Origin: Dactylorhiza incarnata
Taxonomy: Eukaryota; Streptophyta; Magnoliopsida; Asparagales; Orchidaceae
Reading direction: 5' to 3'
Assembly (NCBI GenBank): GCA_033032865.1
Contig: JAWHQI010000099.1
Location: 8,220,501-8,284,500, forward strand
DNA: 64,000 bases
Shown: positions 10,319 to 61,690 of the stretch, one piece after another
Layout of the letters: the number at the start of each line of letters is the position of its first letter
How positions within the stretch are numbered: position 1 is the first letter of the stretch
Notes under the pieces: generated by a model
The model's input: only the letters and a program-made list of their open reading frames with translations
The model's database searches: none
Told to the model about the DNA's origin: nothing
Made by a program: the position numbers and the translations under genes

Positions 10319-10542
10319 CTGTCGCCGGGGCGACATCGCTGTCTGAATTCCGACAGCGCCAAACTGCCGTTCGTCGTGCTGCCGTGCGAGCGGTTGCTGT
10401 AACTTCGGGACTGTCGCCTGGGCGACATCACTGCCGGAATTCCGACAGCGCCAAACTGCTGCTCGTCGTGCTGCCGTGCGGGCAGTTGCTGTGACTTCTG
10501 TCCTGTCGCCTGGGCGACAGTAGATGTCGGAAAATTCCGACA
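10319..10542. promoter_or_regulatory. Palindrome-pair cluster in RLC-A U3
   Basis: Three pairs (10319-10357, 10411-10448, 10503-10542) of TGTCGCC(T/G)GGGCGACA and TGTCGGAATTCCGACA-type repeats, separated by a repeated spacer of about 50 bases containing CGTCGTGCTGCCGTGCG. Upstream position and perfect two-fold symmetry suggest sites for a dimeric protein. Confidence 0.75.
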
Positions 10543-10693
10543 TCTAAATTCTGCATATAGTCAAATTGAGCTCTAATCACAATTGTGAACATCTCATACC
10601 TGTTACCTGCACACCATCAATAAAAGTAAAATCAAATACAAACGGGATTTTGTTATTATCAAACCGGAAGAGTGCGAAACGCATGCTCCAACA

Positions 10694-11228
10694 CTTATTA
10701 CGTTACTTGCGCTGCTTTTACTTACTTACTGCTCATTTACTACCTATTGCTGTCTTATTTACTTCTCATATATTATCTATTGCTGTTATACTTACTGCTC
10801 GCTTATTCATTATAATGTTAGTATAATCCCTATCACCTACATCTTCTTTTACCCCTTATTGTCCTTCGCTTCGTCCTCCCTCTCGGTACTTAGGAGTAGT
10901 GGGGGAGGTGAGGACAAAATGGCTTAGTCTTTTTGACTAACGGTCGGATGTGGTTGTAACACCAGGAGATCGAGGAGTATGAGTCGCAGTACGTCAGGCT
11001 GGACATGATGGAAGACCCTGAGGAGCAGATGTCGCGCATCACTACTCCCACACCATGACAGGTTGGAGAGTATTTTTTTTGCTTTCGCATAGCTAGTGTA
11101 GGGTGAGAGAGTGCTTTGTCATTAGTATTTTCCTTTTGGATCTGTATCGGTCTTAAGCCCTTGCACTCTTTTTATTTGAACTCATTATGGACTATTTGCA
11201 CTCTTCTTTAAATATATATATATATATT

Positions 11229-11273
<45 letters not shown>

Positions 11274-11640
11274 TGTAGTTGTGGACTTGTCATATTTGTA
11301 TTAATTCTTTCTTGCAAAATTGGCTTGTAATATGATCGAATTAGCCGGCAGGATCGACGTTGAGCGGTGATAACTAACCCGTGAGTTGGGGTCACCGTAA
11401 GACAGCAGTTCTGTGCATAAGATCTGGGAATTCTCCGGTAAGGAGGAGAGGGATCTTACAACTAGTATCACTTAACAAATGATCATAATAGAAAGAAGTC
11501 CACAAAACACTAGGTCACCCTGCTTGAGCATTAGTTTGTGGACAAACTATGTAGCGGAAGTAATGGTGTGCCCATGTGTGAAATCACATATATAGTCCAT
11601 CTAAACAATGAATTAGGTTGATTCTAATAAATTTCCTTTC
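10694..11640. other. RLG-O upstream region, no recognised gene
   Basis: Probably leader sequence of RLG-O. No ORF resembles a known protein. A dinucleotide repeat lies at 11211-11272. Nothing else is identified. Confidence 0.45.
11211..11272. repeat. (AT)n(GT)n microsatellite
   Basis: About 40 bases of alternating A/T with one TTT interruption run straight into about 20 bases of alternating G/T. Confidence 0.95.
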
Positions 11641-13615: not shown

Positions 13616-14459
13616 ATCTTCCTCTATTTGAAGAAGGCAGAACATTCCCAATGCTAAGGTACATAGCCAACAAAAACCTATCATGAAAATGATCAATATA
13701 GCATTCATGATAACATTGTTTCTAGAAGATAAGATTATTTAAGCATTCAATTAAAACTCATGATTGTTTATATTAAGCTTTGACTAACTCAGAGGACAAT
13801 CCTTGTACTCAAAGCAGACTCTGAGTTGGTCTTAGCATTGTCCCATCTCCCCCTTTCTGATTTCTTCAACTATTTTTCCCTCTAGGGATTGGGAGGAAAC
13901 AGCTACATACCCTGAGAGAGTTTAGAAAGCATTTTCCAAAAACCCCTTTAAGTCATCCTTCATCTTCTCTGACTCTCTTAGCATTGGCCATCTCCCCCTC
14001 AACCTGAGCAGGAACTTGCTCCCCTTAATGTGAGTACTATTATCATTATTAGCTGTTCTTATTCATTTTGAATAACCCTTTCTAGATCCCCCTCACTTGG
14101 AGCATTAGTATTGTTCTTATTTTTGTAAGTGTAAATGAAATGACATCATATGGCTGAGTTCGTCGAACTCAGAGCTTAGTTCGTCGAACTCAGACTGGAG
14201 TTCGTCGAACTCAGACTGGAGTTCGTCGAACACAAGGTTGTTCATCTGAACTATATCATAATGTTGAGTTCGTCGAACTGAGACCTGAGTTAGTCGAACT
14301 CAAACTCGACATTTGTCGAACCCAGGAAAGAGTTCGTCGAACATAGATTTTTCCCAGCTTTCTAAGTGCAACCTGAAGCTCAGCTGAAACAGATTGTTCT
14401 GATTAAGCTGATCATCCTTCTTTAAAATCAATAAGGAGGAGAGTTACTTACCTTGAGGA
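13616..14459. other. RLC-B non-coding 3' region with GTTCGTCGAAC repeats
   Basis: No ORF of note. A purine tract (minus AGAGGAAGAT) abuts the LTR and is the probable PPT. Between 14158 and 14342 the palindrome GTTCGTCGAAC or a near-copy occurs about eight times, usually followed by TCAGA. This is the same motif as in the U3 of the element. Confidence 0.7.
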
Positions 14460-14583: not shown

Positions 14584-14599
14584 TGTACAACCCGTATTT

Positions 14600-14825
14600 G
14601 GCGAGTGGGTCCCTCGAGTCAGTTGATGGGACAGGGGTCAGCCAGACCATTCGCCCGTACCGAGACAGGAAAAAGGATCCCCAGATTAGTGGGGGTAGGC
14701 TGCAGGCGAGTGGGAGCCTGACGAGTGGTGCCTCCACGGACCATTCGCTCAGAGGCTTGATCATTCGCCCAGTCAGGCGGGAACTCGGCGAGTGGTTCCC
14801 TCACGGACCACTCGCCCAGAAGGCA
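14600..14825. promoter_or_regulatory. GCGAGTGG / CCACTCGC inverted units in RLG-T U3
   Basis: At least eight half-sites of GCGAGTGG or (A/C)(C/T)TCGCCC in both orientations. The last pair forms an inverted repeat (GGCGAGTGGT ... ACCACTCGCC). Similar half-sites recur near 15360, 15615, 17570-17720 and 19350-19375. Confidence 0.65.
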
Positions 14826-14973
14826 GTGAGGAGGAAATGACCATAATACCCCTTGTGGTCTGCATATAGGCCTTCAGAACAGCGGAGTTAGGCTATTCGT
14901 AGACCAATTTGGGGTGCGTTTAGTAAAATTAAAAGGCGGATTCATGCTATTTGCAGACCAGCCTAAGAAAAAC

Positions 14974-23027: not shown

Positions 23028-24680
23028 TGAAAGATTATATAGGTATATGATCTAATTCACCTAGAGGGGGGGGGGGGGGGAGGGGTGAATATGTCTTTTG
23101 ATTTCTACTTGTTTGATATAGATATTTAAAATTATTCTAAGCAAGAAATCAAGCACACCCAGAAAACACACAAGTGTTTATAGTGGTTCCCCAAGACAGT
23201 GTGTCTATGGGTAGTCCACTTTCCCCCTTCACCCTTCTAACAGTGTATTATACAGGGCCAACTCCTCCAAACTCAGCTCCAAGAGATTACAACACAGATC
23301 CCTCAAGATCTCTCAGGTTTTCCTAAACCCTACCTCAGGCACAACAACCCTACCTCATAGGAAACCACCTCCTACAGCACAGACCACCTCCAGGTCCTAC
23401 CTCAAGCTGATCTCTTAGCTCTACAACTCAGGCTATTCATCCCTACCTCAGATCTCACAGATCCAACCTCAGAGGACTCCACCTCCTACAGCTCAGACCA
23501 CCTCCTAGTCCTACAACCTCTGGCCAAATGGCCCTACAAACTCAGAACCCAAAGGATCCTACAAACTCAGAACCCAAAGGCTCCTACAGAAGATATAATG
23601 AGGTTTACAGAATGAAAGAAGAAAAGATCAAGCCTGTTCTTCTTCTTCTTTTCAGCTGCTGTTGAAGACTTGAATCACGGAGGAGTAGTACAGCTCCAAT
23701 CTTGATTCTACTTGATCAACACTTCAGATGAAGGTCTGGATCTACTTGCTCTATCTTGAGATGAATCAAGATGAGCTATCTCTTCCTTGCAGCCTTGTGT
23801 TAGCATAGTTCTTGGCTGCCGACAATGGAACAGTTTGCTTCCGCTTCTTTGTGTGCTCGACAGAAAGATTGATTGCATAAGTTCTTTCTCAACCCTAATT
23901 TATGCCTTTTATACATCCTCGATCTTCAACGGCTCTCAGCCGTCCTTCTGACTGATATGGGAGTGACTGGTGGACCCCACAATGCCTTTCTGCATCTTGC
24001 GCCAAGGGTAGAACCCGCCATGTCACGTTTGAACTGTCTCAGCGATTGGGCTGAGATGGCTTCCTCTTCTCAGCGGATTTCGTCGATCTATTGAGAAGTT
24101 TCTACGTTCGACGAATAGCATTCTTCATTCGACGAACTTCATTCTTCGTTCGACGAACATGCCAAGTCTCAGCACTTGCTTCTGGCCCGTCTCTGCGTTC
24201 GACGAATTGAGTTCTGCATTCGACAAACATGCCAAGTCTCAACGTTTGCTTCTGTTCCATGTCTGCGTTCGACGAACTTCATTCTTTGTTCGACGAACCC
24301 GCCAAGTCTCAGCATTCGAAAAACTGCATTCTGCATTCGACGAACTCACCAAATCTCAGCGGACATTTGCTGCTTCTTTTCGGTCTCAGCGGATCCGCTG
24401 AGACAGACATCCGTCTCAGCAGTTTCTTCTATCTGCAGCTCATCCTGCCCAGATGCCTTCTCAGCGGCTCCTGACCTCGTCTCAGCGGTTCAGCTGAGAC
24501 ATCTGTTCATCTCTTAGGAGATGATTTCTCCTGATCTAAGGGCATGATTGGCCCTTTCTCTCGAGTTACCTGAGCCTATATATCTTACAAAAATATGGCT
24601 TTATCAAATACATCTTGTACTTAGCATTGTGAGTGATGCCTCTTCAAATCAAAGGAATATTGAGGGAAATATTCCCAACA
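23028..24680 (-). repeat. RLC-B 5' LTR (1653 bp)
   Basis: TGAAAG to CCAACA. A G run lies at 23066-23080, a TATA box (TATAAAA, minus) at 23907-23913, and the TTCGACGAA and CTCAGCGG arrays at 24105-24500, upstream of the TATA box. Confidence 0.94.
24105..24500. promoter_or_regulatory. TTCGACGAA and CTCAGCGGATCCGCTGAG array, RLC-B 5' LTR U3
   Basis: About eight TTCGACGAA-type sites between 24105 and 24345, then the perfect 18-base palindrome CTCAGCGGATCCGCTGAG near 24386 and partial copies to 24500. Confidence 0.78.
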
Positions 24681-32722: not shown

Positions 32723-33719
32723 TGTTGGATCGGTAGGCGCCCTTAGAGGGGGGGGGGGGGTGAATAAGGGTTTTAAAAACTTATAATATATTTTGAATAA
32801 CTTTGAAAAAGCTTTGATTATTAAACTAGAGAAGATCAAGACAAATCAAGTGATGTAAAAGTAAAGACATGATTTTATTAACGTGAGAAACATGATTACA
32901 AAACTTGATCTCTTATCGAAGCTAGAAATCAAAGCTAATAGAAAGACTCTTTTTGTTTTCTATACCGACTCGTATCCCAACGAACCGGTTGGCTTTTGCC
33001 GATCCTTCCCCGGATATGGCCTCAAGCCGCTCTAGCCAACCCTTCCCCGGATATGGCCTCGAGCACCCCCTAGACCTACACCCGAGACCTAGTCGCCAAC
33101 ACGAGGCAAATTTCTGCCCTAACTCCTACCCAAACCTAGTCGCCAACACAAGGCGAATTCACTAACGATTGCAAGAATAAAGATGTGAATATAAAAACAT
33201 CAATAATAAAAACTCCCTCTAAGAACTTCTGAAGTTGGAGACGTTGAACCGCTTTAGTGTAAGCGTTGTTCAAGCGGTCGCCGGTCGGATGAAGCGTGAA
33301 GAAGTCCTCCTTCAGAAATTCTCTCTAAGCTTTTGGTGGGAGTATCTCTCTGAACCTTCCTCTATATGATGTGGCACGAAGCTCTGGAGTTTAGGGTTAT
33401 AGAAGAGTAAGGAAGACGGAGCCAATGGGTCCTTTTTATAGCCTCAGCACTAGCGCCTGCGGTAGTGCTACCGCCTGGCGCTAGCACCTTCTAAAATTGT
33501 TTCCGAGATTTTCTCAAGTCCGCGCTAGCTCTAGCGCTAGCGATAGCGCCGGTGCTAGCGGGCATGTTGGAATTTTGGCTTCAAATTTTGGCGCAACATT
33601 CTTATGTTATCCTTGAGTCATGTGGACTTGTTTGCCTGCACACTTTAACACACAAGATCAAATACACATAGGATTTGTTATTCTCAAACCTAGGAGATGC
33701 GGAAGACCATGTTCCAACA
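32723..33719 (-). repeat. RLC-C 5' LTR (997 bp)
   Basis: TGTTGGATCGG to CCAACA. The TATA box (minus) is at 33433-33440, and the GCTAGCGC-type palindromes at 33450-33560 lie directly upstream of it. A G run lies near 32748-32760. Confidence 0.93.
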
Positions 33720-35727: not shown

Positions 35728-35990
35728 TCCAGGAGTTCGTCGAACTCAGCCACTTGATCGTGGAACGCAGCTCGCCACTCGTTCGTCGAACTCAGCCACT
35801 CGTTTGTCGAATGCAGCTCGCCACTCGTTCGTCGAACGCAGCTCGCCACTCATTCGTCGAATGCAGCTCGCCACTCATTCGTCGAATGTAGCCCCTCTGT
35901 CGTTCGTCGAATGCAGCCCCTCTGCCATTCGTCGAACGCAGCCCCTCTGCCATTCGTCGAACGCAGCTCCTCCTCAAAACGCCGAATGCA
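35728..35990. promoter_or_regulatory. GTTCGTCGAACGCAG array, RLG-K U3
   Basis: About ten copies in units of roughly 24 bases (GTTCGTCGAACGCAGC plus TCGCCACTC or CCCTCTGC), just upstream of the TATA box. The other LTR has a variant array at 60262-60540 with different unit order, so the array changes by unequal exchange. Confidence 0.85.
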
Positions 35991-39526: not shown

Positions 39527-39546
39527 CTCCCCCTTGAAGTGGGATG

Positions 39547-40512
39547 TGTTGGGTTTTTCTACAACCATACATCGTATGTAGGCGCATCGGAAATAAAGAG
39601 AAACAACCCAAAAGGATTCGGATCGGCCATGAACATTGAATCAAGAAGTAATGAAAATTACTAGGCATAAATTACCTTAGTGGAGTTGGATCGAATCCAA
39701 CCTAGGTGCTCCAAGAAGAAGAATCCTGTCAGCGGCTATGCGAGAGTCCTCACGTAGAATGATGTCCACGTCTCTACAGTGATCCACACGAGCCGTGAAA
39801 AGAACGACTGCACCTTGCACTTCCACGAACTGCTAGGTTCGCTCCAGGAAGAACAATCACGGCGACGATCGCCGGAAGGAGGTCTGCGTAGATGAGCGAA
39901 ACGGCGGAACACTTCCGTCGGCTAGGGTTCGTGAGGCGGAACTCTTCCGTCGGGTCTTCTTCCAGGAGGCATAAGAAGAGCATGTTGAACCCTTAAAATA
40001 GGTCCTATTTATACCCGAAGTATAAAAAGACCTAGGCAAATCGCTATCTGCAGTCCATACAGAAGAACTTGAGGTTTCTGTCAGCATTCGTCGAGTTTGC
40101 ACGAAATAATCCGACGAATTCTGACGAATCATATCAGACGGCAACATTTGCCGAGTTAAGGATCTCTGTAACAATTCGTCGAGTTTCCACGGAACAATCC
40201 GACGAATCCGACGAATCATATCAGACGGCAACATTTGCCGTGCTTAGGGTCTCTGTAATAATTCGTCGAGTTTGGACTGCTGTAGAGACGTAGACATTAT
40301 TCTACGTGAGAACTCTTGCAAAGCCGATGAAGGCAATCTTCTTCTTGGAGCATCTAGGTTGGATTTGATCCAATCCCGCCAAGGTAATTTCAAACCTAGC
40401 ATTTTGATTAACTTCTTGATTCAATATTCATGGTCGATCCGAATCTTTTGGGTTGTTTCTCTTCTTTTCCGCTGCGCCAACATTTGATGTATGGTTCTAG
40501 AAAAACCCAACA
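39547..40512 (-). mobile_element. 966-bp LTR-like fold-back element
   Basis: The ends TGTTGGGTTTTTCTA and TAGAAAAACCCAACA are part of inverted arms of about 235 bp (39547-39781 and 40278-40512) at roughly 90 percent identity by eye. The middle has a minus-strand TATA box (40006-40013) with an ATTCGTCGAGTTT tandem repeat upstream, i.e. the plan of an LTR U3. The ends resemble the 3' end of the solo LTR at 31470-32503. No 5-bp duplication is visible, and the end of RLC-D RNase H is missing here, so arrival was linked to a deletion. Confidence 0.75.
40077..40272. repeat. 87-88-bp tandem repeat with ATTCGTCGAG
   Basis: ATTCGTCGAGTTT starts at 40086, 40174 and 40261. Between them, AATCCGACGAAT and GACGGCAACATTTGCCG repeat in register. 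There are two full units and a partial one. Confidence 0.85.
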
Positions 40513-43500
40513 CCGCCAAGAAGACTTATCCAGACGTCGACATCCGAATCTCCCCCGTAATCGGCATCCATGTACCCATGCACCTTGAAGCCCACATCCC
40601 TTCTGTAAAGAAGACCCATATCCGAAGTCGCCTTGACATACTTCAGTATATTCTTGGCCGCTAGAAAATGAGGCATCCGTGGTTTCTCCATATAACGGCT
40701 CACCCTTCCAACTGCATACGCAATATCCGGCCTGTTAATTGTCAGATAGATCAAGCTCCCAACCAGAGCCCGGAACACAAGCGGATCTTCCAGAATCCTC
40801 CCCTCATCCTTGCGAAGTTTCATGGCCTTCTCCAGAGGTGTGGAAATGCACTTTCCTTCCTTCATGCCGAACCGCTCCACGATTCGCTCCGCATATCCAG
40901 CCTAGGACACCAGCACTCCACTTTCCTTCCTCTGCACCTCGAGTCCTAGGAAATGGTGAAGCTCACCTAAGTCCTTCATCTCGAACCTTATAGATAGCTC
41001 AGCCTGAAGCCTTGCTACTTCCTCCTTCAAATTCCCCATCACGATCATATCATCGACATAAAGCAGCACGATGACTTGAAGCTCCCCGCTCTTCTTGACG
41101 AACAAGCTTGAGTCTGAGTCTGAAGCACCAAACCCGCAGAATAAGAGATACTCTGCTATCTTTCCATACCACGCCCTCGGCTCTTGCTTCAACCCATACA
41201 GGGCCTTCTTCAACTTGTAGACATGCTCCGGAAAATCTTCAGATACGAAGCCTGGCGGCTGGACCATGAAGATGTCCTTGTCAATCTCGTCGTACAAGAA
41301 CACATTCTTTACGTCGAGCTACCAAATCTCCCACCCCCAACATGCCGCCAAGGCAATCACAACCCGAACTGAAGTCATTTTTGTCACCGGACTGAATGTA
41401 TCCTCATAGTATTCACCGTATTGCTGCGAGAACCCCCGAGCCACAAGGCGAGCCTTGTATCGCTCGATACTGCCGCCAGCCTTCTTCTTGAGCTTATAGA
41501 CCCACTTGCATGTCACAGGGGTGATACCCTTGGGCTTGGGCACCAGAGACCTAGTCTCATTTTTCTCAAGAGCACTCATCTCTTCTTGCATAGCTGAATC
41601 CCACTGTTCCACGCCTTTGGCCTTTTCAAAGCTCGACGGCTCCCCCTCTTCCAAGGGACGAGCATAGAAACACGAGACAAAGCTCACCATATTTCCTCCT
41701 GTATAGCGTTCAGGGGCAATGATGGTTCGCTTCGATCTCCGCAACGCCTTCCCCTGACTCGTAATATCTTCAGCTGCTTCTTCTCTAGCTCCCCTTCCAG
41801 ACGTACTTGGAGCATCGCTCCCCCTGCTTCCTGATCCAGAAGCCTCGGCCTCAGAACTAGATATTGATGGACCACATGGTGACACAGGCAGCTCCACCTG
41901 AAGATTTTCCACAGCTTTCTCCGGCTCCTCCACCCTGCTTTCTGGTAGCTCAACACCAGAACTTCCCTTATAAGACGTCACCTCATCGAACACGACGTCG
42001 CGAGATACAACAAATCTCCGCGTCTCCGGGTCCATGCACTTCCAGCCCTTCTTTCGATCATCATAACCCTCGAAGACTAGCTTCCTTGCTTTTGCATCTA
42101 GCTTCGTCTGAAGTGCATCTGGAACGTGCACATAGCAGGTGGAACCAAACACCCGATGGTGCGCCACGCTTGGCTTTTCCTTGAACATCAGCTCATATGG
42201 GGTCTTCATATTGATGGGAGTAAGAGGCATAATATTGATGACGTAGGCAGCACAAGACATTCCCTCCGCCCAGAAGGACTTTGGGATACTCTTGGCATGC
42301 AGCCAACACTTGCAGGTCTCCGTCAGATGACGGATCTTCCGCTCTGCAACTCCGTTTTGCTGTGGAGTATGCGCACAAGTAAGCTCCCTCCGGATGCCTG
42401 CCTTCCTGCAAAAAGTAGAGAACTCACCAGAGGTGAACTCCCCTCCGTTGTCAGTTCTTAGCTTCTTAACTCGCAGACCAAGCCGACCCTCCACAAGCTC
42501 CTTAAGCTCCACAAACTTGGCAAATGCCTCCGCCTTCTCCTTCAAGAAATATACCCAGACATATCTGGTGTAATCATCAATCAGCACCAGCATATATCTG
42601 CTGCCTCCGAGGCTTGGGGTAGCAGTCGGTCCCATCAAGTCACCGTGGATGCACTCCAACGCCGCACTACACCTTGTCTGCGACTTGCTGAACTGACATC
42701 CCGCGCACACATGACCGTCTTCGTAAGAAGATTGACTAGGCAGGCCCTTGACTAGACCTTTCACCGCCATAGCTTTCAGCTTGTCCATCCCTACGTACCC
42801 CAACCTCTCGTGCCATATGACGACACTATCATTCGTCCGCATCTTGTCGACATAAGAACTTGTCGATAAAACAAACAAGTCTTTAGCTCTCCTCCCAACA
42901 TGAATGACATCCGCCTTCACTGCTTCAACATTCCGAAGAAACCTCACTTCTGTTGTGCCAAATAGAACGTGATACCCAGTGTCTACAGCGTTGGTCGCGG
43001 AGAAGAGGTTTTTCCTCATTCCAGGCACATGATAGACACTCTTCAACGTAAGCGGCCCTCTATCACTGTCCAAGGAAACAACCCCCACCTTCTCCACAAC
43101 ATGCACGGTATTATCAGCAGTAATAATGACATCATTACCTGAGTACGGCTGAGCTGAAGAAAGCTTCGACTCGTCCCCGGTGAGGTGATGACCACACCCC
43201 GAGTCCATGATCCAGTCCTCCTGATAGTTGATAGGAACCACAGCTCCAACAGAAGCCGAGAAGGCTCCTCCCCATCCTCCATCAGTCTGTCTGGCATCAG
43301 CTTTCTCCTTTCCTGCAGCAGCATGCCCTGGCTGAAGATTCACCCGACAATCCTTCCTGATGTGACCAACCTTTCCGCACCTGAAGCACTTGGGACCTTC
43401 TCCCTTCTTCTTGCCTTTAGCCTTAGGAGCATAGCCCCTCTCCTGTTGTCTAGAAGTTGAAGGCCCATAGCCTCCACCAGCATTTTTCTTCTTATCCCAC

Positions 43501-44229: not shown

Positions 44230-45435
44230 TGTGAAAATTTCTGATGATCTAGGAGTGAGCAGGAATTGTATAACTAAAAGTTCAAGCCAAACAACCAGAA
44301 GAACATGAAGCAAACACAATCTTTATTGATAAGCAGAATTCTTCATTACAGGGCGAGGTATACATGGCGAGACATGATTTCGCCAGTACACAAAAAACAG
44401 AAGAGAAAAGCAGCTGAAAGGAAAACCAGCGGTCTGCGAACTTGAGACCGCCTGACCGCCCGACCTGACAGTCCGCCCGGCTAGAAAACCAGATCGCCCG
44501 AACTGCCTGCCTGCGCCTTGAACAACACCAACTGAGAACCACGCGAACTCCCGAACTCCACTGATCCTCCCGAACTCCAGCAACCTGCACTGCAAGCCGC
44601 GAGACCGCCCGAACACCTTCAGAAAAGGAGGTGACCGCTGCTACCCGCACAATCTGCAGAAGCTGCACAAAACAAGTTCGATCAGCAAGTCGGCCGGTTA
44701 CAAGAAACAGACCGCAAGGACAGGTCGCGAGCTCAGCTTACACTTGGTGCTGTATATTTGCTGCTACAGTGGCGCCTATTTATAGGCAAGCGACCTGATC
44801 CAGTCACCACTCTATGAGATAGGATCACCACCCTTTGACCGCGCGACCAGACTGGTCAACCCGCGCGACCAGCAAAAGATCCTCCTACTTAGTGAGCTCG
44901 CCGACTTCAACAGAAGTCGCGCGATCATGACAACTCTCTCGGTCATGTCGCTCACCACCTGTGTTCGCCACCCGACCTCCTCCAGAGACCACGAACACAA
45001 CAGACCGACTAGGGCACAGCCCACCAAGTCGATCAAACACCTGTGACCGCATATGCCAGCTGATCGCCGTAGGACCAGCCATGCGAACACAACCCGGAGA
45101 CTGCGCGACTAAGATGACCTTAGTCCGCGCGCACCACAAAGAACCTGGCTAGCCTCCAGACCGGGCTGCCCGCACCACGCGGTCACAAGCACCAGACCGC
45201 GCGCAGCCCTTACCAGGTAGAAACCTGCTCCGCCACGCGATCAGACAACCAGACCGCGCGGCCTCACCTCGGCACCCTTGGACAGAAGAATGGCGGTCAC
45301 GCTGAGTAGCCCGCGGCTAGACCAAAGAGGTCAAACCGCCAGAGGAGACCGCAAGACCGTGCTGTCAAACCAAACCGCGCGGTCTCCCCCCCAGACCGCC
45401 AACTTCACAAAACTCCCACTTCAACATTTTCAACA
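44230..45435 (-). repeat. RLC-D 5' LTR
   Basis: 1206 bp. The TATA box (minus) is at 44777-44784, with ACCGC/GCGGT units upstream at 44835-45410. Confidence 0.94.
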
Positions 45436-46137: not shown

Positions 46138-46710
46138 TCACAACTCTTCTAACTCATGCGGGGTCATACGGTACGGCGCCTTAGCTATAGGATGAGTACC
46201 ATGCTCAAGATCAATAATGAACTCCACATCTCTATCAGGCGGGAGACCAGGAAGACTGACAGGGAAGACATCAGGAAACTCTCGCACCACCGGAACACCC
46301 TCAATACACGGTGATCCAGTAACAGTTTCTACTACAGAAATAAGGTAAGCCAAACAACAGGAAAGTAATAGTTTCCGAGCACATACCACAGAAATTATCA
46401 GGGAACACTGGTATAGAGACCCAAAAACGCTCATGGGATGACCGTTGTACATCACAAAGTCCAGACGCTTTTCCTTGCATCGGATGACACCATCATAACT
46501 AGACAACCAATCCATACCCAAAATCACATCAAAGTCTTCTAGGTCCAAAGGGCAACTTCGGACGCACTGATTCGAGGATACCAAATCACCAGAAGGGAAC
46601 TTAATGAGGAACGAATCGCTGCCCATCTTAGGGGACAAACAGTGACGATCGACGAAATCCCTTGCTACGAACGAATGGGTAGCACCAGAATCGAACAGAA
46701 CATGCGTCCA
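46138..46710 (-). pseudogene. RLG-K protease and linker
   Basis: The minus strand reads VLFDSGATHSFVARDFVDRH (active-site Asp near 46690), then DFDVILGMDWLSSYDGVI, then the RT-proximal FPDVFPVSLPGLPPDRDVEF. The open frame listed from an internal Met at 46638 is in phase with RT. The RLG-X empty target site lies in this coding region at about 46497-46506. Confidence 0.88.
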
Positions 46711-46823
46711 ATGATTCTTTACCTTAAATATCCCTATAAGCGTGAAAAAGAAACTAGTCTAATACAGCGAAACTAAAAGGAATCAAGACTAAGCAGCTGG
46801 CTTAAGGTCTAACCTGCGATCAC

Positions 46824-47965
46824 TTAGGTCGAAGACTGCGCTTGCTCCTGGGTTAACACGTTCAGCTTTCCTCTTCCTTTATCCTGATGCTGCGGCGGCG
46901 ACAAGGCTCGAAGCAGAACTGGCTGCAATGGGGGTTGAACTAGCGGGCATTGAAACTTCAAGTGCCCCTTCTGTCCGCACTGGAAGCAGACTTTATCTTT
47001 GGTCAACCACTGGGCCACATCATGCCCCTTCCACTTGCACAACGGGAAGAGCACCTCTCCCTTTAGAGCACCCTGAATTGCCAGCACTCGCTGCTGCTTT
47101 TGAACTCCTTTCCTCTTGAAACACCTCTCAACTAGATGGCCTGAGCGGCCACAGAAATTGCAGACCTCACCACCTCCTTTCTTCAAGACCAAGGCAGGCG
47201 CACCAGAATTTCCTTCTTCTCCAGCCTTTCTCTTTCCCTTCTTCACCATTGATCCTCGATTCTTGGCATTATCAATTGCCTCAACCTTCAGTGCTGCCTC
47301 TACTACCTCGACGTACTTCTCCGACCTATACGCACTAGCCAGCTGCTGGATATCACTGCGGAGACCACCCATAAATCTCTTTACTCTTCCTTCTTCCGAG
47401 GCTACCAGGGCCGGAGCAAACCTGCTCAACTTGCAAAACTCAATCTCATACTCGCTCACCGAGAGCTGCCTTTGCTTCAGATGCAGGAAATCATTCATTA
47501 ACCGGTTTTGCTCTACCGACGGCAAAAACTTTCTTAACAACATTCCTTTAAAGGCTTCCCACGAATAGCCTTCGGAAAGGTCTTCCTTCTCCCTCAACCA
47601 CCAACTTTTGCGAGACCCTTAAGCTGGTACGCGGCAACCATCACCTTCTGATCCACGGTGATTCCTGAATACGAGAACATCTCTTCCATGGCTATAAGCC
47701 AATTGTTTAAGGCCACGAAGTCGGCTCGACCGTCATACGATGGAGGACCCAACCTTTGAAAGTGCGAAATGAAATTCATTTCTGGAGGTATCGCTACTGG
47801 GGGTACCAAGGGAGCAGGAGGAGTAGGTACTGTCTGTCCTACTACGGGGTCCTGCACTACGGGTTGCTGCCTAGCACCGGCAGACAACAACGCCTCAACT
47901 TGCAATTGCATCGCAACCATCTGCCTAGTCAGAGCCTCATTGCTCCGGCGCAGACTCTCGATCAA
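46824..47965 (-). pseudogene. RLG-K gag, copy 1
   Basis: Two overlapping segments in different frames. 47594-47965 holds the N-terminal helix and PPEMNFISHFQRLGPPSYDG. 46824-47597 holds the capsid end (KFLPSVEQNRLMNDFLHLKQ) and two zinc knuckles (CNFCGRSGHLVERC, CFQCGQKGHLKFQC) with a third CKWKGH-type trace between. The frame breaks at the KSWW-like site near 47600, consistent with loss of one base. Copy 2 at 56028-57169 has the same break. Confidence 0.9.
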
Positions 47966-48701
47966 AGCTTCACTCTGCGCTCCCGATGACTCGCCCTCTG
48001 ACTGGGGAGTCGACCTAGTCGCGGCTCGCTTGCGCGCGATCTCTACTAATATGCATACACCTATAATTAAAACTTAACCTTACACTAGAACTACACTGCT
48101 TGGTTCAGAACATACATGTACAGATACTTGCCATTGCTTCCACCTTGCTCTGGGATTTTCATTATGATATGCTAAATTCGGGAACGATACTACATCGTCC
48201 CTCTTGACTCATGTGCAAAGGGCATGAATGCATGAATTTTCTGTTCATTTGAAATCATGGGTGTACGTGTGTCATCATATAAGTCTTTAACTTCGCACGT
48301 GTGCTTATGCAATACTATGTAATGTATGTTATGCTATGCTTTCTAAAAAAGTCCGTAATGCATGTTATGAGCGGCGTACACATGAAATATTATGCATCCC
48401 ATACTACATAATATTGCATGTAACGAAAAAGCAAAACGTGCTAATGGGCATCCATGTGATGATGGTTATGCATCCCATACTACATAACCGTCACATGTTG
48501 CCTCCTATGGTGGATCAATACACAGACACATATTATGCATCCCATACTACATAATATGCTCCATATACTTCTTATCATGCTATGAGTGTAGAGTTCATGC
48601 TTCGGCCAAGACGTATTGATGACACATCGGTGTGTATGAAATTAAACCAAAACAACTACTATATCAGAATTTGTTGCCCGACCGACCTGTCGAACAACCT
48701 A
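47966..48701. other. RLG-K 5' untranslated region
   Basis: Between gag and PBS. It contains three copies of ATTATGCATCCCATACTACA-type sequence (about 48391, 48466 and 48532), a short dispersed repeat in the leader RNA. No gene is present. The same sequence is at 57170-57905. Confidence 0.55.
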
Positions 48702-48713
48702 GCTCTGATACCA
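48702..48713 (-). other. RLG-K primer binding site
   Basis: Minus strand TGGTATCAGAGC, two bases from the LTR end (minus GTTGTGACA). Second copy at 57906-57917. Confidence 0.92.
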
Positions 48714-48715
48714 AC

Positions 48716-49534
48716 TGTCACAACCCACATTTTCTCCAAATTTAGGAATATAAGAGTAAGTGATAATACGCGTCATGATGCCACGTCATGCAGGAGACAA
48801 CTGCAGATGCTCAGGCGGAAACCTATTACTTATTTAATCAAAACATGTTCACATGATAGATCATCATTTGAAATCATTTATGAGGGTTTGGGGTAAGAAC
48901 TGTGTCTCTCAGTTCGTGGATCAATTAGTCCACCGTGAAAATATACGTAATTATAGCGGAAAATACTTGATTTAGTTCACTTAAGGTCCTAAATGCACGT
49001 GATGACATGACATAAAGTAAATGATATGCACATATCTAGGCATAGTATAAGTATAGAAAATATATTTAGGCGACTTTAAAGATATGGATTTCAGTTAAAA
49101 GGAATGCAATGAGGATGAAAGAAAAGTCATTTTATAACTATAATGCACCTAGACATAAATCATTCCCCAAAGAGCAAGATACACAAGATCTAAAAAGTAG
49201 TAGCATTTAACTGGAAAGTAAGCTATAAAGTATCAAAGGGCACAACGGGCATCAACAACCTGAAACTAACCTGTTGGCTCCAAACTAGCATGTATGAACA
49301 CAAGAAGACAACTAACCACAACTACATAGCAGCAGCGGGGTAAATTAGCAACTAAAACTCCCGGAGACTCCTGGCTACACCACTAGCAGCTAAGGCTCTG
49401 AACCCGAGGCATTCAATAAAACAAAGAACGCCTCAGCAAGGGAATTACAAGTGGCAGAAAACAAGCAGAAAAGTAAATAAGGCATAAGGGGTACCAACCC
49501 AAGCCATATTTACCAAAAGAGAAGCTCCAAACAA
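48716..49534 (-). repeat. RLG-K 5' LTR fragment
   Basis: TGTCACAACCC onward, identical to the first 819 bases of the LTR at 57920-60751. It stops at 49534, where RLG-X begins after a six-base filler. Confidence 0.9.
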
Positions 49535-49540: not shown

Positions 49541-49890
49541 GCACGATCACTGGTTCTATTGCGCACGACCACTGGTCGTGCGCCACTGATCGTGTGCACT
49601 TAACGCTTTTTTCATAAGTTCTGTTTGGTGTAATGCGCACGATCATCAACTCCAGCGCGCACGACCACCGGTCGTGCGCCACTGCTCGTGCGCACTGACC
49701 ATTAATTTTTAAGTTCTGTTTCATCTATTGCGCACGACCACTGACGCTAGTGCGCACGACCATCGGTCGTGCGCCACTGGTCGTGCGAACATGTTATTTT
49801 GTAATTTCCGTCTTTGCAGGTTCTGTCCAGGCAGAGCGCACGATCACAGGATTCCAGTGCGCACGACCAATGGTCGTGCGCCACTGACCG
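49541..49890. promoter_or_regulatory. GCGCACGACCA / TGGTCGTGCGC palindrome array, RLG-X U3
   Basis: Four units of about 90 bases. Each holds GCGCACGACCA, one to three bases, TGGTCGTGCGC, CACTG and another half-site, with AAGTTCTGTTT-type spacers. The 3' LTR has the same at 54322-54670. Confidence 0.88.
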
Positions 49891-54055: not shown

Positions 54056-55705
54056 TGATGAGTCCTCATCATATACACTTTTATGGACTCATCTGGGCCG
54101 TTTAGTTAGTCATTTCACTGCACTTTAGCCCTGTTTTAGTTCATATTTGATATCCCATGCTAGGTGCACCTTTTGGCCCATTTTGGTGTGATTTCATGTT
54201 GATTTTCATTAGTAGTTTTCATGCATTGTTCGGTGCCACTTTTAGTGGCCGGATTGGTGGTTGTACGCTAGAACAGGAGTCGTGCAGGTGTTTCCGGTGC
54301 AATTCTGCACAGGAACACAGCGCACGATCACTGGTTCTATTGCGCACGACCACTGGTCGTGCGCCACTGATCGTGTGCACTTAACGCTTTTTTCATAAGT
54401 TCTGTTTGGTGTAATGCGCACGATCATCAACTCCAGCGCGCACGACCACCGGTCGTGCGCCACTGCTCGTGCGCACTGACCATTAATTTTTAAGTTCTGT
54501 TTCATCTATTGCGCACGACCACTGACGCTAGTGCGCACGACCATCGGTCGTGCGCCACTGGTCGTGCGAACATGTTATTTTGTAATTTCCGCCTTGCAGG
54601 TTCTGTCCAGGCAGAGCGCACGATCACAGGATTCCAGTGCGCACGACCAATGGTCGTGCGCCACTGACCGTGCGCACTGTTTAATTCCAGCGCCTATAAA
54701 TTCCCTGCTCGCGATTTTAGGTCATAATCCCCCGCTTTCTTCCGCCGTTTTCCGCCTGGTTTGGTCCGACTTCGCCCCTCCATCGTCGCCCACCTTAGGG
54801 AGGATCTCCGGGCTTGTTCTTCACGCCAATCTTGAGCCGGAGTTTCCTCTCGGCCTCCTCCTTCATCCAAGAGCTCCAAAGGAAGACCTAGCCGCTATCT
54901 CCATCGAGCAAGAGGAAGTTGGCAACCTCCACCGGATCGTGACACGAAGAAGACGGGTCCATTGGAGAGTCGTGACAGCTCTCTCTACCCCGGACGTAGT
55001 TGTGGACCGAGCTTGGACGCGGATTGACAACCCGGCGATTCCAACCGTGAATCTTCAACGAGCCTTCGGATTCGGTCGATTTCTTGCCTTGTTCTCCTTT
55101 TATTGATGTATTTGCAACTAGATCTAACATTATGATGAAGTGTATTTTGATTAAATAACATTTTTACTTGATTATGTCTATGTGATTTAGTATTTTTGTT
55201 TATATTATTGAGGTGCGCCTTGTGGTGTGGTTTGTTGGTTGTCCGGTGCCGCACTAGCAATTGCTAGTGGCGTGCTTGGTGAAGAGGTGCTTGCGACCCT
55301 CAATCCGTAAGCCTACTCGCCCATCCGCCTACCGAAGCGTGGCATCGCGGCCCGTATTCCATTCGCCTAACGAAGCATCGCGCTCAAGGCCTGCATAGTT
55401 CGACTCCGTTAGCCTACTCGTCCATCCGCCCTTTCGACGCAGCGCGCTCAAGGCCTGCCTAGTCTCCATCCCGCCAAGCGAAGCTTTGCATAGCGGCATT
55501 GCATAGGAGTAGTTGATAGCTTTTATTTTGTTTTCCAAAAGCCAACCCAACTCCTCCGCATTCCATCCACGTTAAGGACTTCAATCTCAAGTCCTTCCTC
55601 GAAACCTAACTCCACCTTACTGTGTTCCTCAAGAGACCGACACTCGGGGATTTTCCCCATTATTATTACTTGCGCGACCGGTGCACTTGCCGAATCATCG
55701 TATCA
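54056..55705 (+). repeat. RLG-X 3' LTR (complete, 1650 bp)
   Basis: TGATGAGTCC to CGTATCA; the terminal TGAT and ATCA are inverted. It is preceded by the PPT and followed directly by RLG-K sequence starting GACAACC. Confidence 0.93.
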
Positions 55706-56027
55706 GACAACCAATCCATACCCAAAATCACATCAAAGTCTTCTAGGTCCAAAGGGCAACTTCGGACGCACTGATTCGAGGATACCAAATCACCAGAAGG
55801 GAACTTAATGAGGAACGAATCGCTGCCCATCTTAGGGGACAAACAGTGACGATCGACGAAATCCCTTGCTACGAACGAATGGGTAGCACCAGAATCGAAC
55901 AGAACATGCGTCCAACGATTCTTTACCTTAAATATCCCTATAAGCGTGAAAAAGAAACTAGTCTAATACAGCGAAACTAAAAGGAATCAAGACTAAGCAG
56001 CTGGCTTAAGGTCTAACCTGCGATCAC

Positions 56028-57169
56028 TTAGGTCGAAGACTGCGCTTGCTCCTGGGTTAACACGTTCAGCTTTCCTCTTCCTTTATCCTGATGCTGCGGC
56101 GGCGACAAGGCTCGAAGCGGAACTGGCTGCAATGGGGGTTGAACTAGCGGGCATTGAAACTTCAAGTGCCCCTTCTGTCCGCACTGGAAGCAGACTTTAT
56201 CTTTGGTCAACCACTGGGCCACATCATGCCCCTTCCACTTGCACAACGGGAAGAGCACCTCTCCCTTTAGAGCACCCTGAATTGCCAGCACTCGCTGCTG
56301 CTTTTGAACTCCTTTCCTCTTGAAACACCTCTCAACTAGATGGCCTGAGCGGCCACAGAAATTGCAGACCTCACCACCTCCTTTCTTCAAGACCAAGGCA
56401 GGCGCACCAGAATTTCCTTCTTCTCCAGCCTTTCTCTTTCCCTTCTTCACCATTGATCCTCGATTCTTGGCATTATCAATTGCCTCAACCTTCAGTGCTG
56501 CCTCTACTACCTCGACGTACTTCTCCGACCTATACGCACTAGCCAGCTGCTGGATATCACTGCGGAGACCACCCATAAATCTCTTTACTCTTCCTTCTTC
56601 CGAGGCTACCAGGGCCGGAGCAAACCTGCTCAACTTGCAAAACTCAATCTCATACTCGCTCACCGAGAGCTGCCTTTGCTTCAGATGCAGGAAATCATTC
56701 ATTAACCGGTTTTGCTCTACCGACGGCAAAAACTTTCTTAACAACATTCCTTTAAAGGCTTCCCACGAATAGCCTTCGGAAAGGTCTTCCTTCTCCCTCA
56801 ACCACCAACTTTTGCGAGACCCTTAAGCTGGTACGCGGCAACCATCACCTTCTGATCCACGGTGATTCCTGAATACGAGAACATCTCTTCCATGGCTATA
56901 AGCCAATTGTTTAAGGCCACGAAGTCGGCTCGACCGTCATACGATGGAGGACCCAACCTTTGAAAGTGCGAAATGAAATTCATTTCTGGAGGTATCGCTA
57001 CTGGGGGTACCAAGGGAGCAGGAGGAGTAGGTACTGTCTGTCCTACTACGGGGTCCTGCACTACGGGTTGCTGCCTAGCACCGGCAGACAACAACGCCTC
57101 AACTTGCAATTGCATCGCAACCATCTGCCTAGTCAGAGCCTCATTGCTCCGGCGCAGACTCTCGATCAA
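56028..57169 (-). pseudogene. RLG-K gag, copy 2
   Basis: Same two segments and same frame break as copy 1. One amino-acid difference (Pro for Leu in QPVPLRALSP) and very few base changes. Identical damage shows the duplication came after the break. Confidence 0.92.
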
Positions 57170-57905
57170 AGCTTCACTCTGCGCTCCCGATGACTCGCCC
57201 TCTGACTGGGGAGTCGACCTAGTCGCGGCTCGCTTGCGCGCGATCTCTACTAATATGCATACACCTATAATTAAAACTTAACCTTACACTAGAACTACAC
57301 TGCTTGGTTCAGAACATACATGTACAGATACTTGCCATTGCTTCCACCTTGCTCTGGGATTTTCATTATGATATGCTAAATTCGGGAACGATACTACATC
57401 GTCCCTCTTGACTCATGTGCAAAGGGCATGAATGCATGAATTTTCTGTTCATTTGAAATCATGGGTGTACGTGTGTCATCATATAAGTCTTTAACTTCGC
57501 ACGTGTGCTTATGCAATACTATGTAATGTATGTTATGCTATGCTTTCTAAAAAAGTCCGTAATGCATGTTATGAGCGGCGTACACATGAAATATTATGCA
57601 TCCCATACTACATAATATTGCATGTAACGAAAAAGCAAAACGTGCTAATGGGCATCCATGTGATGATGGTTATGCATCCCATACTACATAACCGTCACAT
57701 GTTGCCTCCTATGGTGGATCAATACACAGACACATATTATGCATCCCATACTACATAATATGCTCCATATACTTCTTATCATGCTATGAGTGTAGAGTTC
57801 ATGCTTCGGCCAAGACGTATTGATGACACATCGGTGTGTATGAAATTAAACCAAAACAACTACTATATCAGAATTTGTTGCCCGACCGACCTGTCGAACA
57901 ACCTA
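57170..57905. other. RLG-K 5' untranslated region, copy 2
   Basis: Copy of 47966-48701, including the ATTATGCATCCCATACTACA-type repeats. No gene is present. The PBS follows at 57906-57917. Confidence 0.55.
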
Positions 57906-57919
57906 GCTCTGATACCAAC

Positions 57920-60751
57920 TGTCACAACCCACATTTTCTCCAAATTTAGGAATATAAGAGTAAGTGATAATACGCGTCATGATGCCACGTCATGCAGGAG
58001 ACAACTGCAGATGCTCAGGCGGAAACCTATTACTTATTTAATCAAAACATGTTCACATGATAGATCATCATTTGAAATCATTTATGAGGGTTTGGGGTAA
58101 GAACTGTGTCTCTCAGTTCGTGGATCAATTAGTCCACCGTGAAAATATACGTAATTATAGCGGAAAATACTTGATTTAGTTCACTTAAGGTCCTAAATGC
58201 ACGTGATGACATGACATAAAGTAAATGATATGCACATATCTAGGCATAGTATAAGTATAGAAAATATATTTAGGCGACTTTAAAGATATGGATTTCAGTT
58301 AAAAGGAATGCAATGAGGATGAAAGAAAAGTCATTTTATAACTATAATGCACCTAGACATAAATCATTCCCCAAAGAGCAAGATACACAAGATCTAAAAA
58401 GTAGTAGCATTTAACTGGAAAGTAAGCTATAAAGTATCAAAGGGCACAACGGGCATCAACAACCTGAAACTAACCTGTTGGCTCCAAACTAGCATGTATG
58501 AACACAAGAAGACAACTAACCACAACTACATAGCAGCAGCGGGGTAAATTAGCAACTAAAACTCCCGGAGACTCCTGGCTACACCACTAGCAGCTAAGGC
58601 TCTGAACCCGAGGCATTCAATAAAACAAAGAACGCCTCAGCAAGGGAATTACAAGTGGCAGAAAACAAGCAGAAAAGTAAATAAGGCATAAGGGGTACCA
58701 ACCCAAGCCATATTTACCAAAAGAGAAGCTCCAAACAAAGAACTAAGCAAAGCACCAAGTGCACCAAATACAATAAAGAGGAACAAGCAAAGTTCATTTA
58801 TCTTGTTAACTTTATTTAAAGAGACTGATCAGCTCAAATTAAACGGGGGCGGTCCTTTATCCACTGCCACCCAAAGCCAAAAAATGGGTGTGGGTTTCTA
58901 TCCCCAACCACCCAAACACGGCCCACGGGACCACAGGCCAAGCCTGCGGTTCACCACAAAAATGGCCACGGTGCAAGGCTACAACACTCCCCACTGTCCC
59001 CCCAAAACACGACCCACCATGCAAGGACAAAGGAAGTGGTCTTATTAATTAATTCCTTTTAATTATGGCATGGGACGAAGCCCGAGAAAAAAACACTCAC
59101 CAGGATACCCTAAGGATAGGGCCAAAAATGAAGTAAACACTGCACAAGACGATTCATAAGAGAAGACATAAGTCATTTAACCACAATGGGTATAGGATTT
59201 CGAAGAGGAGAAGTAATCATGATAAAAGGCACAAAACAAACACTGATAATACCCCTGTACACTTTAGAAGATTCAAAGTTCCAAGAGAGGGAAGAGGACC
59301 GAGACATAACTCACATACTTAGGAGTGGACAAGCATTTCTTGAGAAGGAGAAGGCATTTCTCGAGGAATGAAGGGTAGCAACCTGAACATGTCTCAGGAA
59401 ATAGAGGAGTAGATTAGGCATTTCTCGAGAGCTAAGGGGCCAACACAGGGTTTCTAGAGAACTAAAGGGCAGACATAAGGATTTCTCAAAAAGTATAGGA
59501 CAGACACAAAGGTTTCTCGAGAATTCCCAAAACAGGAAACAATAATTTCTCGAGAAATCAAAGCAGGAGAAGCCATCTCTCGAGAAATCCCCAAGCAGGA
59601 AAAACATGATTTCTCGAGAAATCAAGGTAGGGTCATGCTGATTTTCCGAGAGATTAAAGGCAGGGTTAAGCTTATTTTTCGAGAAATTAAAGGCAGGGTC
59701 ATGCTTTCTCGAAAAATAAAAGGGCAGGGTCAATGATTTCTTGAGAAATCCAAGGCAGGAGGAAACCACAAAATGAAGGAATTCAAGTGGGGGGGGAGAT
59801 CAAAACGACACGACCAAAAAACACAAGCCAAGACAAACCAAGAATGCATAACCACAGAAAACAGAAATTCCACCAAAAAGGGAGAGGGGGAAGAAAGCCA
59901 CTTGCCTTAAACCTTGCAAACTCGAAGATCTCCGCTCCAAAAGTTATGGATCGGCCAAGAACTCACCGAGCACGAAATCCTGAAACTTTTCGGATCGAAA
60001 AGAGGAATTAGGTCACTACCATAACTCGAAAAATTCCACGAACGGGAAAAGCTTACCACTAGAATGAAGATCCCGCCGAGAGCTTTCCAAATCTACTCTC
60101 CAAACGCGATTCCGACTACTACAACCCTCGAATCGCCGGCTAGAAGCTCCACGACACGCTGCTCTCGCTCTCTCGCCAGACAGAACTCTAGGTCGGCCGA
60201 AAGGGGAAGGAGATGAAAAGTTAAAACCTAAGCTTAAAGTATAAATACTTAAGCCTCCAGGAGTTCGTCGAACTCAGCCACTCGATCGTCGAACGCAGCT
60301 CGCCACTCGTTCGTCGAACTCAGCCACTCGTTCGTCGAACGCAGCTCGCCACTCGTTCGTCGAACGCAGCCCCTCTGTCGTTCGTCGAACGCAGCCCCTC
60401 TGTCGTTCATCGAACGCAGCCCCTATGTCGTTCATTGAACGCAGCCCCTCTGCCATTTGTCGAATGCAGCTCCTCTGTCGTTCGTTGAATGCAGCCCCTC
60501 TGCCATTCGTCGAACGCAGCTCCTCTTCAGAATGCCGAACACAGAGCCAGGGAAATATAATGAATGCGATAATTACACAAATAATCTCCCATAACTCGAA
60601 CCAACGTGAAATCTCAGACGCTCGATCCAAATTACACACTTTAACTAGTCTAAGGCCCAAAACTAAACCTGGCGAGCTGACGTAACGTCCAAAAGCCAAA
60701 ATTATGTTACATCCGCCACATAAATAATTAACGGAAATCAGGGGCGTTACA
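57920..60751 (-). repeat. RLG-K 5' LTR, complete (2832 bp)
   Basis: TGTCACAACCC to GGGGCGTTACA. On the minus strand it reads TGTAACGCCCC to GTGACA. The TATA box (minus) is at 60240-60247, with the GTTCGTCGAAC array at 60262-60540 upstream and the TTTCTCGAGAAAT array at 59335-59750 downstream. Length and ends fit Tekay-type chromoviruses. Confidence 0.92.
60262..60540. promoter_or_regulatory. GTTCGTCGAACGCAG array, RLG-K 5' LTR
   Basis: About eleven copies of the unit seen at 35728-35990, some mutated at CG (GTTCATTGAAC, TTTGTCGAATG). Confidence 0.85.
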
Positions 60752-60969
60752 ACAGTGCCCAGCAGTGTTCCTGATTTGAAGAAGTGCTCAGCTCAATGAT
60801 AAGTGCAAGTTGTATTTAATGTCATGTCTAGTTCATGCATGCAGAGATGAGACAATATGTCCAGTACTTCAACAGCCTGCCTAAGTATAATATCGTCGAA
60901 AAAGGTAGGACATATCGTTGACAAGTCCAGGCACATCGTTGAGATGACGGGTAAAGCAAACGCTGAGAC

Positions 60970-61690
60970 TTGGCGAGTTCGTAGAACGCAGAATGCAGTT
61001 CGTCGAACACAGAATGCAGTTTGTCGAACGCAGAATGAAGTTCGTCGAATGAAGAGACAGGACAGAAGCAAACGCCGAGACTTTGCAAGTTCGTCGAACG
61101 AAGAGTGAAGTTCGTTGAACAAAGAATGAAGTTCGTCGAACAAAGAGACGGGATAGAAGAATGAAGTTCGTCGAACGCTGAGACGGGACAGAAGAATGAA
61201 GTTCGTCAAACACAAAGACGGGACAGAATAATGAAGCTCATTGAACGCAGTGAAGACATGAAGATATCAAAGGAAGGAATGTCGTCGAAAAGATGCAGTA
61301 TCGTCGACATCAACAAAGTAGCCTTGTCGTCGAGAAGAACAGACATCGTCATAAAGAAGGCATGACGTCGAGAAGACTGAAGAAGGACAGCTGAAGACAA
61401 GCAGTTGCTAAAGCATAGTCTGTCGACATGATATCGCTCATGTCGTTGAAAGAGCATAGTGATTACGACGCCAGTTTGCAAGAAAGAAGATCACGACGAC
61501 ACAGTCAGAGATTGCATATCGTCGTATATGCAGAAACGCTGGGATGTCACGTATCGTCGAGATATCAACGTCAGATGCAGAAGCTAGAAGACTTGAAGAT
61601 CCACCAAGGCCTAAGGCATCGACAAAGTCCCGTCGTCGATATATTATCCATGTCGTCGTAATAGTGGAAATATCGTCGAGACAGATTCAA
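60970..61690. promoter_or_regulatory. TTCGTCGAAC and TCGTCGA array, RLC-E U3
   Basis: About nine AGTTCGTCGAACGCAGAATG-like units interleaved with GAGACGGGACAGAAG, the reverse complement of the RLC-B U3 unit. They are followed by at least eight looser TCGTCGA or CGTCGTA sites. Confidence 0.78.

Follow-up and report, generated by a model that had tools for sequence, protein, structure and literature searches.

In a 64,000-nucleotide stretch of the 3.27-Gb genome of the orchid Dactylorhiza incarnata (contig JAWHQI010000099.1, positions 8,220,501 to 8,284,500; hereafter the window), arrays of short CG-containing palindromes lie in the unique 3′ (U3) part of the long terminal repeats (LTRs) of retrotransposons, directly upstream of the TATA box. 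The plan is common and crosses the boundary between the Ty1/copia and Ty3/gypsy superfamilies, yet it is not universal. One array word, TTCGWCGAA (W, A or T), is common to copia and gypsy LTRs, and its extended form GTTCGWCGAAC occurs at 215,595 sites genome-wide, compared with 389 for GTACGWCGTAC, which is matched to it in composition and CpG content. Judged from the DNA, the arrays are probably upstream activating sequences on which dimeric host factors act, and elements have gained them or passed them to one another more than once.

When the window was compared with itself, seven LTR pairs proved to bear arrays (A, B, T, C, K, D and X) and one flank, P, to be repeated; each LTR was read in sense orientation to place U3 and the TATA box (Table 1). 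The motifs named in a first-pass annotation of this DNA were found in place within these pairs, except that TGTCGGAATTCCGACA occurs at 10319-10542 only as one-base variants, with the perfect 16-mer at 725. All seven arrays fall inside U3 and both LTRs of each element bear one, although the 5′ LTR of X is cut off at 49541. The TATA box said to follow every array is TATAAA, the next promoter-like feature, in A, B, T, C, D and X, but K has only TATTTATA as a TATA-like site past its array. Array E, homologous to that of B, is also followed by TATAAA, but has no partner LTR within the window. Pfam searches of the open frames gave copia-type matches for A, B and D and a gypsy-type integrase for K; the frames of T and X had no match, and C had only a weak, non-retroelement one. 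In the genome, all 40 of the best-scoring copies of the A array that were scored span at least 222 of its 224 bases (93–100% identity), and the 40 best-scoring copies of the D array cover all 576 bases (92–100% identity). Two further examples in the annotation fared less well: the “solo LTR” at 31660-31945 has an excess of inverted repeats (p = 0.010) but no LTR structure was seen there, and the fold-back array at 40086-40272 (p = 0.156) sits in an element with inverted ends, outside any LTR. The “eight or more unrelated families” are fewer, because A, B and C share Sirevirus traits and the B and E arrays are homologous.

Inverted repeats, defined by an arm of at least 6 and a loop of at most 12 bases, were compared with 300 dinucleotide shuffles (p floor 0.003). 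The excess in U3 over shuffled sequence and over the R/U5 part of the LTR was found in most families: coverage of U3 reached p = 0.003 in six of the seven pairs (A, B, C, K, D and X), and that of R/U5 reached p ≤ 0.05 only in A (0.013). The ratio of observed to expected CpG was higher in U3 than in R/U5 in all seven. T was borderline (coverage 0.073; all inverted repeats 0.085; CG-containing repeats 0.015; dyad score 0.040), and B was significant when all 768 bases of its U3 were counted, but not when only the 450 bases adjoining the TATA box were (0.199 and 0.463; dyad score 0.177).

Tandem copies inflate counts of inverted repeats, and two copy-resistant measures were therefore used, distinct inner words and longest palindrome. 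Once identical inner words were collapsed, significance was kept only in C (0.013) and D (0.033). This loss in five of the seven families, together with the tandem nature of the arrays and an array common to two otherwise unlike elements (S10 and X, below), is what a functionless by-product of U3 tandem duplication, followed by inheritance or exchange among elements, would leave behind. We nevertheless consider such a by-product rather unlikely. The longest palindrome in U3, a measure immune to copying, was significant in A, B and X (0.003 each) and K (0.050), though not in T, C or D, and also in R/U5 of K (0.010) and X (0.013); moreover, spacers within the palindromes diverge while half-sites stay, and CpG-rich words persist genome-wide despite fast CpG decay after insertion.

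The sample was widened with de novo LTR pairs from 200 kb nearby and with 22 pieces of 1.6 to 2.0 kb from two other contigs, each taken as the stretch upstream of a Met-type primer site (L and S numbers below). L035, which proved to lie on the wrong side of its primer site, and L043, a near copy of L042, were left out, and S1, S4, S5, S10, S13 and L046, without a usable TATA box, fall outside the sets of 23 and 34 LTRs described here; the TATA box was chosen by a stated rule, partly by eye, and is non-canonical in L041 and S15. Across 23 LTRs, CG-containing inverted repeats occupied 880 bases upstream of the TATA box against 133 expected, and 73 against 63 downstream, with p ≤ 0.05 in 15 of 23 LTRs upstream and 2 of 23 downstream; observed-to-expected CpG was higher upstream in 19 of 23. 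The dyad score in 34 LTRs was 1133 versus 154 upstream and 165 versus 143 downstream. When the TATA box was not used at all, CG-repeat coverage in 17 complete LTRs peaked in deciles 2–4 (0.112, 0.144 and 0.072, about 0.006 being expected), and the peak lay closer to the TATA box that follows it than expected by chance when the 12 LTRs usable for this test, out of 17, were combined (p = 0.0075).

By eye, most LTRs with a Sirevirus-type 3′ end carry repeated CG words; 6 of the 15 tested were individually significant (A, C, L030, L033, L045 and L048), as were 9 of the 19 remaining LTRs (T, K, D, X, S2, S3, S8, S12 and S14). The claim that the same plan extends beyond Sireviruses was borne out, with arrays in copia D and in the gypsy lineages K, X/S3/S14, S2/S12 and S10. 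Gypsy-type frames include Integrase_H2C2 in K, RVT_1 with RNaseH in S12 and Retrotrans_gag with a protease in S3; S10 is also gypsy-type, X is placed with gypsy because its LTR is similar to those of S3 and S14, and no copia-type polymerase was recognised in K, X or S2/S12. Primer sites and Pfam domains were the features examined for gypsy lineage. That every LTR family has an array was too broad a claim, true of many families and not of others: no CG-palindrome array was seen in L032, L034/L038, L037/L040, L049 or S1, with L038 having a single 12-base CG repeat (p = 0.045), nor does one precede the TATA box in L042/L043, whose LTR end is Sirevirus-type. By eye, the related L037 and L040 have a 13-bp inverted repeat upstream of the TATA box, with a loop of about 17–18 bases and one matching change in both arms. 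In D (44777-44790), L034 and L038 the TATA box is itself embedded in the palindrome GCCTATAAATAGGC.

A, B and C fit most of the Sirevirus traits tested and D does not. Polypurine octamers, of which the Sirevirus form is AGGGGGAG, lie upstream of the 3′ LTR in A (five), C (three) and B (two, plus a terminal AGAGGAAG), while D has none adjoining its LTR. The 3′ LTR attachment site is AT/TG in A and B and TT/TG in C, without intervening bases in D. The 5′ LTR junction, CA/ATTGG or CA/AGTGG followed by TATCAGAGC, is matched by B; C departs from it at the final base, A carries CGTGG together with a change of the final base, and D has no extra bases. A poly-C tract of C7 or longer occurs within the last 260 LTR bases of A, B and C but not D, K, X or T, although this trait is unclean, since S1, L031 and L049 have poly-C without arrays and L036, L039, L041 and L046 lack it. 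Palindromes with a CGG-CCG core lie upstream of the TATA box in A (TGTCGGAATTCCGACA), B (CTCAGCGGATCCGCTGAG) and C (GCGGTAGCACTACCGC), along with words lacking this core. Array words also occur upstream of the 3′ LTR, with six TTCGWCGAA in B and one of the A palindrome words in A (about 2915); palindrome words in this linker are reported for envelope-bearing Sireviruses. Among related families, no other part of the LTR changes as fast as the array. Related Sirevirus-type LTRs align at both ends and much less across the array, whose words are TGTCGG in A and L033, AACGTC in L030, GCGCTAGC in C, S9, L029, L048 and others, and TTCGWCGAA in S4, L047 and also L046.

Seven nine-base words recur upstream of the TATA box in at least five lineage groups (shuffled mean 0.0), and none do so downstream; all seven are forms of the TTCGACGAA neighbourhood. 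In 264 kb, TTCGWCGAA occurs 76 times, 73 of them in groups of at least three, while 11 other dyads of like form occur 0–2 times each. Of the first listed places of GTTCGWCGAAC in the genome, L053 and L056 are K-like arrays and L054 is B/E-like; L051, L052 and L055 were unmatched. L051 and L052 are AT-rich tandem sequence bearing GGCCGTTCGTCGAACGGCC and GGCCAGTTCGTCGAACTGGCC, unlike any LTR compared. The X word has 45,606 exact sites in the genome and the S2 word 54,042. Occurrences of TTCGWCGAA in the literature look like chance hits in primers and sequence tables, judged on the titles and abstracts of a sample. The presence of the same words in unrelated elements suggests that the same plant proteins may switch these elements on.

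The annotation held that the plan had been arrived at convergently, which fits only part of the evidence. Masking TTCGWCGAA strips most similarity between lineages, while close relatives keep theirs (L046-S4, E = 2e-155; B-L041, 7e-8; B-E, 1e-5; E-L041, 3e-5). After masking, K has no match to copia arrays below E = 0.06, and this dissimilarity fits convergence or an old exchange, with the limit that masking lowers power: L047 and S4, both Sirevirus-type, fell from 3e-18 to 0.72. S10 and X, by contrast, have 163 bp in common at 73% identity (E = 6e-18; 0.02–0.28 with palindromes masked). The stretch is found in both S10 LTRs, although LTR ends and primer sites differ and the S10 gag is unrelated to that of the X relative S3 (BLASTP E = 0.19). 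Because these otherwise unlike gypsy LTRs share such a stretch, exchange is its likely source. TTCGWCGAA may owe its spread to either convergence or exchange. X, S2 and S3 have a putative tRNA-Asp primer site.

The palindromes could act as DNA dyads or in the transcript. In the S2 module, 28 unique flanks of the core give ACGCCC-nn-GGTCACGGGCGTGACC-nn-GGGCGT; the outer half-site pairs at positions 3–6 are retained in 22, 23, 24 and 21 of 28, while spacer positions 1–2 pair at the permuted rate (0.29 versus 0.31; 0.54 versus 0.52). This exact-core set, an independent sample of 28 unique flank pairs, has no flank covariation overall (p = 0.55). With the looser core TCACGGGNGTGA, 231 of 376 outer pairs matched against 206 permuted (p = 0.0014, 47 unique pairs), mainly from one position alternating between G-C and A-T, and an earlier S2/S12 set of 10 unique flank pairs gave p = 0.0007. 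Covariation was dropped as a proof of dyad symmetry, as the S2/S12 signal was lost in the independent sample with the exact core, and these results are read as conserved half-sites with free spacers. GAATTC and GGATCC were unfit as control words (p ≤ 0.001), since both lie inside palindromes, and that run was discarded.

The looser-core and earlier signals would also be expected of RNA hairpins, with palindromes in the 3′ U3 of the transcript feeding small-RNA silencing or serving the element, and in maize Sireviruses the stretch with the palindromes is where small RNAs accumulate, according to PMC5311732 and PMC10760457. A continuous stem, however, needs covariation in the exact-core spacers, where it is absent; 40 of 92 CG repeats upstream of the TATA box (arm of at least 6) have loops of 0–2 bases, too tight for a full hairpin; and placement beside the TATA box is left unexplained. 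Hairpins are thus an unlikely explanation. Kept half-sites and free 2-bp spacers fit protein dimers on DNA better than a continuous RNA stem, and the suggested sites for dimeric proteins gain indirect support from their promoter-proximal place, from real dyads and from the S2 half-sites.

Between the two LTRs of 11 elements, CpG had decayed to TpG or CpA at 141 of 499 sites in U3 and 82 of 338 in R/U5, while other C/G transitions numbered 142 of 2275 and 143 of 3204. Methylation-protected islands, one form of the methylation control proposed at first, were not supported by these figures. Because U3 CpGs decay after insertion about as they do elsewhere in the LTR, the arrays of resident copies look methylated like the remaining LTR. 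Their CpGs would presumably be kept high through renewal by copies that still transpose.

We infer protein binding, activation and a host origin of the factor. Dimeric host transcription factors would bind each dyad through symmetric half-sites at fixed spacing, and serial sites would boost transcription from the TATA box directly downstream. Families that kept or gained sites would then make more RNA and spread further, and this would favour tandem amplification and let unrelated lineages, copia and gypsy alike, come to carry the same words, whether these arose anew or were taken from another element. The annotation had left the protein as host or element-encoded, and the host side is favoured because TTCGWCGAA occurs in both copia and gypsy LTRs. 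That words differ by family, as if each were read by its own protein, would suit element-encoded or chromatin factors (anti-silencing proteins, Gag or integrase binding, nucleosome placement), and in wheat RLG_Quinta a U3 motif has been proposed to position nucleosomes (PMC11302176). Yet the same word serves elements of both superfamilies, and arrays also occur in short, non-autonomous-looking elements such as S2 and X; factors of this kind are quite improbable. Activation by dimeric host factors may be taken further, though tentatively and with considerable doubt, to a small set of such factors, one of them reading TTCGWCGAA, that drives a large share of the LTR retrotransposons of this genome; unrelated copia and gypsy families would each have converged on or captured the dyads, and the hundreds of thousands of sites of one word near promoters would make up a shared code that may draw the factor off host genes by titration. 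Array words include GCGCACGACCANTGGTCGTGCGC, beside TTCGWCGAA, the S2 module and TGTCGGAATTCCGACA. TGTCGG is an auxin-response-factor site, CGCG a CAMTA site and CGTGCG a BZR1 site, all candidate leads to the factors.

Several observations weigh against activation by host dimers. Only 15 of 34 LTRs were individually significant by dyad score upstream of the TATA box (1 of 34 downstream), several families have no array, and many of the LTRs compared are related, hence not independent. The test that ignored the TATA box was mixed, with peak-to-TATA distances not shorter than chance in B, T, D, S8, S12 and S15; the D peak lies in U5, and B and S15 are at chance. Flank covariation was absent around TTCGWCGAA, where S4 alone of 10 sources reached p = 0.042, and in the A array, two of whose copies, L005 and L007, lack the TATA landmark by which orientation was checked. 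Finally, the best-scoring copies of A and D are biased to those bearing the array.

Table 1. Palindrome arrays and TATA boxes of the window, with positions counted from its first base.
Feature	Position	Strand	p
A U3 array, 5′ LTR (Sirevirus-type); TGTCGS-N4-SCGACA words (S, C or G), 92-bp units	10319..10542	-	0.003
A TATAAA	10307..10312	-	
A array, 3′ LTR copy	606..835	-	
B U3 array; TTCGACGAA units and CTCAGCGGATCCGCTGAG	24051..24501	-	0.003 (whole U3)
B TATAAA	23908..23913	-	
B linker, six additional TTCGWCGAA upstream of 3′ LTR	14156..14341	-	
C U3 array; GCGCTAGC and GCGGTAGCACTACCGC	33446..33559	-	0.003
C TATAAA	33435..33440	-	
D U3 array; ACCGCGCGGT-type units, copia without the Sirevirus traits tested	44835..45410	-	0.003
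D TATAAA, within palindrome GCCTATAAATAGGC	44779..44784	-	
K U3 array (gypsy); GTTCGWCGAAC, 25- and 46-bp units	60262..60540	-	0.003
K TATA-like TATTTATA	60240..60247	-	
K array, 3′ LTR copy	35735..35972	-	
X U3 array, truncated 5′ LTR; GCGCACGACCA-N-TGGTCGTGCGC	49541..49890	+	0.003
X TATAAA	49915..49920	+	
X complete 3′ LTR; array begins about 54322	54056..55705	+	
T U3 repeats GGCGAGTGG/CCACTCGCC, borderline	14600..14825	+	0.073, 0.085, 0.015, 0.040
T TATAAA	14974..14979	+	
E array, homologous to B array, TATA further downstream	60976..61690	+	0.020
E TATAAA	61816..61821	+	

Further features of the window elements were observed. The K LTR carries tandem TTTCTCGAGAAA palindromes downstream of its U3 array (34889-35228 and 59420-59759), an exception to the U3-only pattern. 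The flanks of X (46491-49534 and 55696-58738) are a 3-kb repeat, 99.8% identical, with the X 5′ LTR truncated at the junction, a pattern that either a tandem duplication of 9.2 kb or an artefact of assembly would give. The fold-back element (39546-40513) has inverted arms of 234 bp (86%), ends TGTTGGG/CCCAACA and an 87-bp tandem repeat inside. On the strand opposite to A, a 395-aa frame (2914-4101) resembles Transposase_32, although its 34.2 bits fall short of the cut-off of 45.

If the words bind one or a few host proteins, most of the retrotransposon families active in a large plant genome could be reached through them together, and a single 11-base site present in 215,595 copies would supply a large stock of ready-made enhancers or decoys. 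Beyond Sireviruses, the arrays also allow a test of whether Ty1/copia and Ty3/gypsy elements converged on the same regulatory sequences or exchanged promoters. Repeated U3 motifs act as activators in Tnt1, Tto1 and ONSEN, each a single family, and we know of no genome-wide shared word for such motif arrays of transposable elements. Our literature search, with most subscription journals outside its reach, found no earlier report of such arrays in gypsy LTRs.

The closest known system is that of the Sirevirus RM boxes (Bousios et al., 2010; PMC2829016), described from 13 Sireviruses as palindromic, CG-rich repeated motifs upstream of the TATA box that are absent from classic copia. The arrays here resemble them in being palindromic, CG-containing, multicopy, CpG-rich and placed in U3 directly upstream of the TATA box, with additional linker copies as in B, and the C word GCGGTAGCACTACCGC resembles AGCGGTASTACCGCT of Inga. 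However, RM boxes were reported there as Sirevirus-specific, whereas copia D and gypsy lineages bear arrays here, and TTCGWCGAA and GCGCTAGC lack the CGG-CCG core. A 2016 study, as described in PMC5311732 and PMC10760457, likewise found fast-evolving palindrome clusters in the regulatory part of LTRs, with a focus on small-RNA targeting, unlike here. Repeated, sometimes palindromic arrays of cis-motifs are known from several transposable elements, but in Ty3/RLG elements of maize no obvious peak of these structures is generally seen (PMC10760457), in contrast to the gypsy families here. Sharing between superfamilies also has a precedent in the U3 motif common to gypsy RLG_Quinta and copia RLC_Gisela, attributed to gene conversion in PMC11302176; that motif is 162 bp long and linked to centromeric nucleosomes, whereas short palindromic words recur here in several lineages. 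Within the literature searched, it is new that such arrays extend to several gypsy lineages and that one word is shared across the genome.

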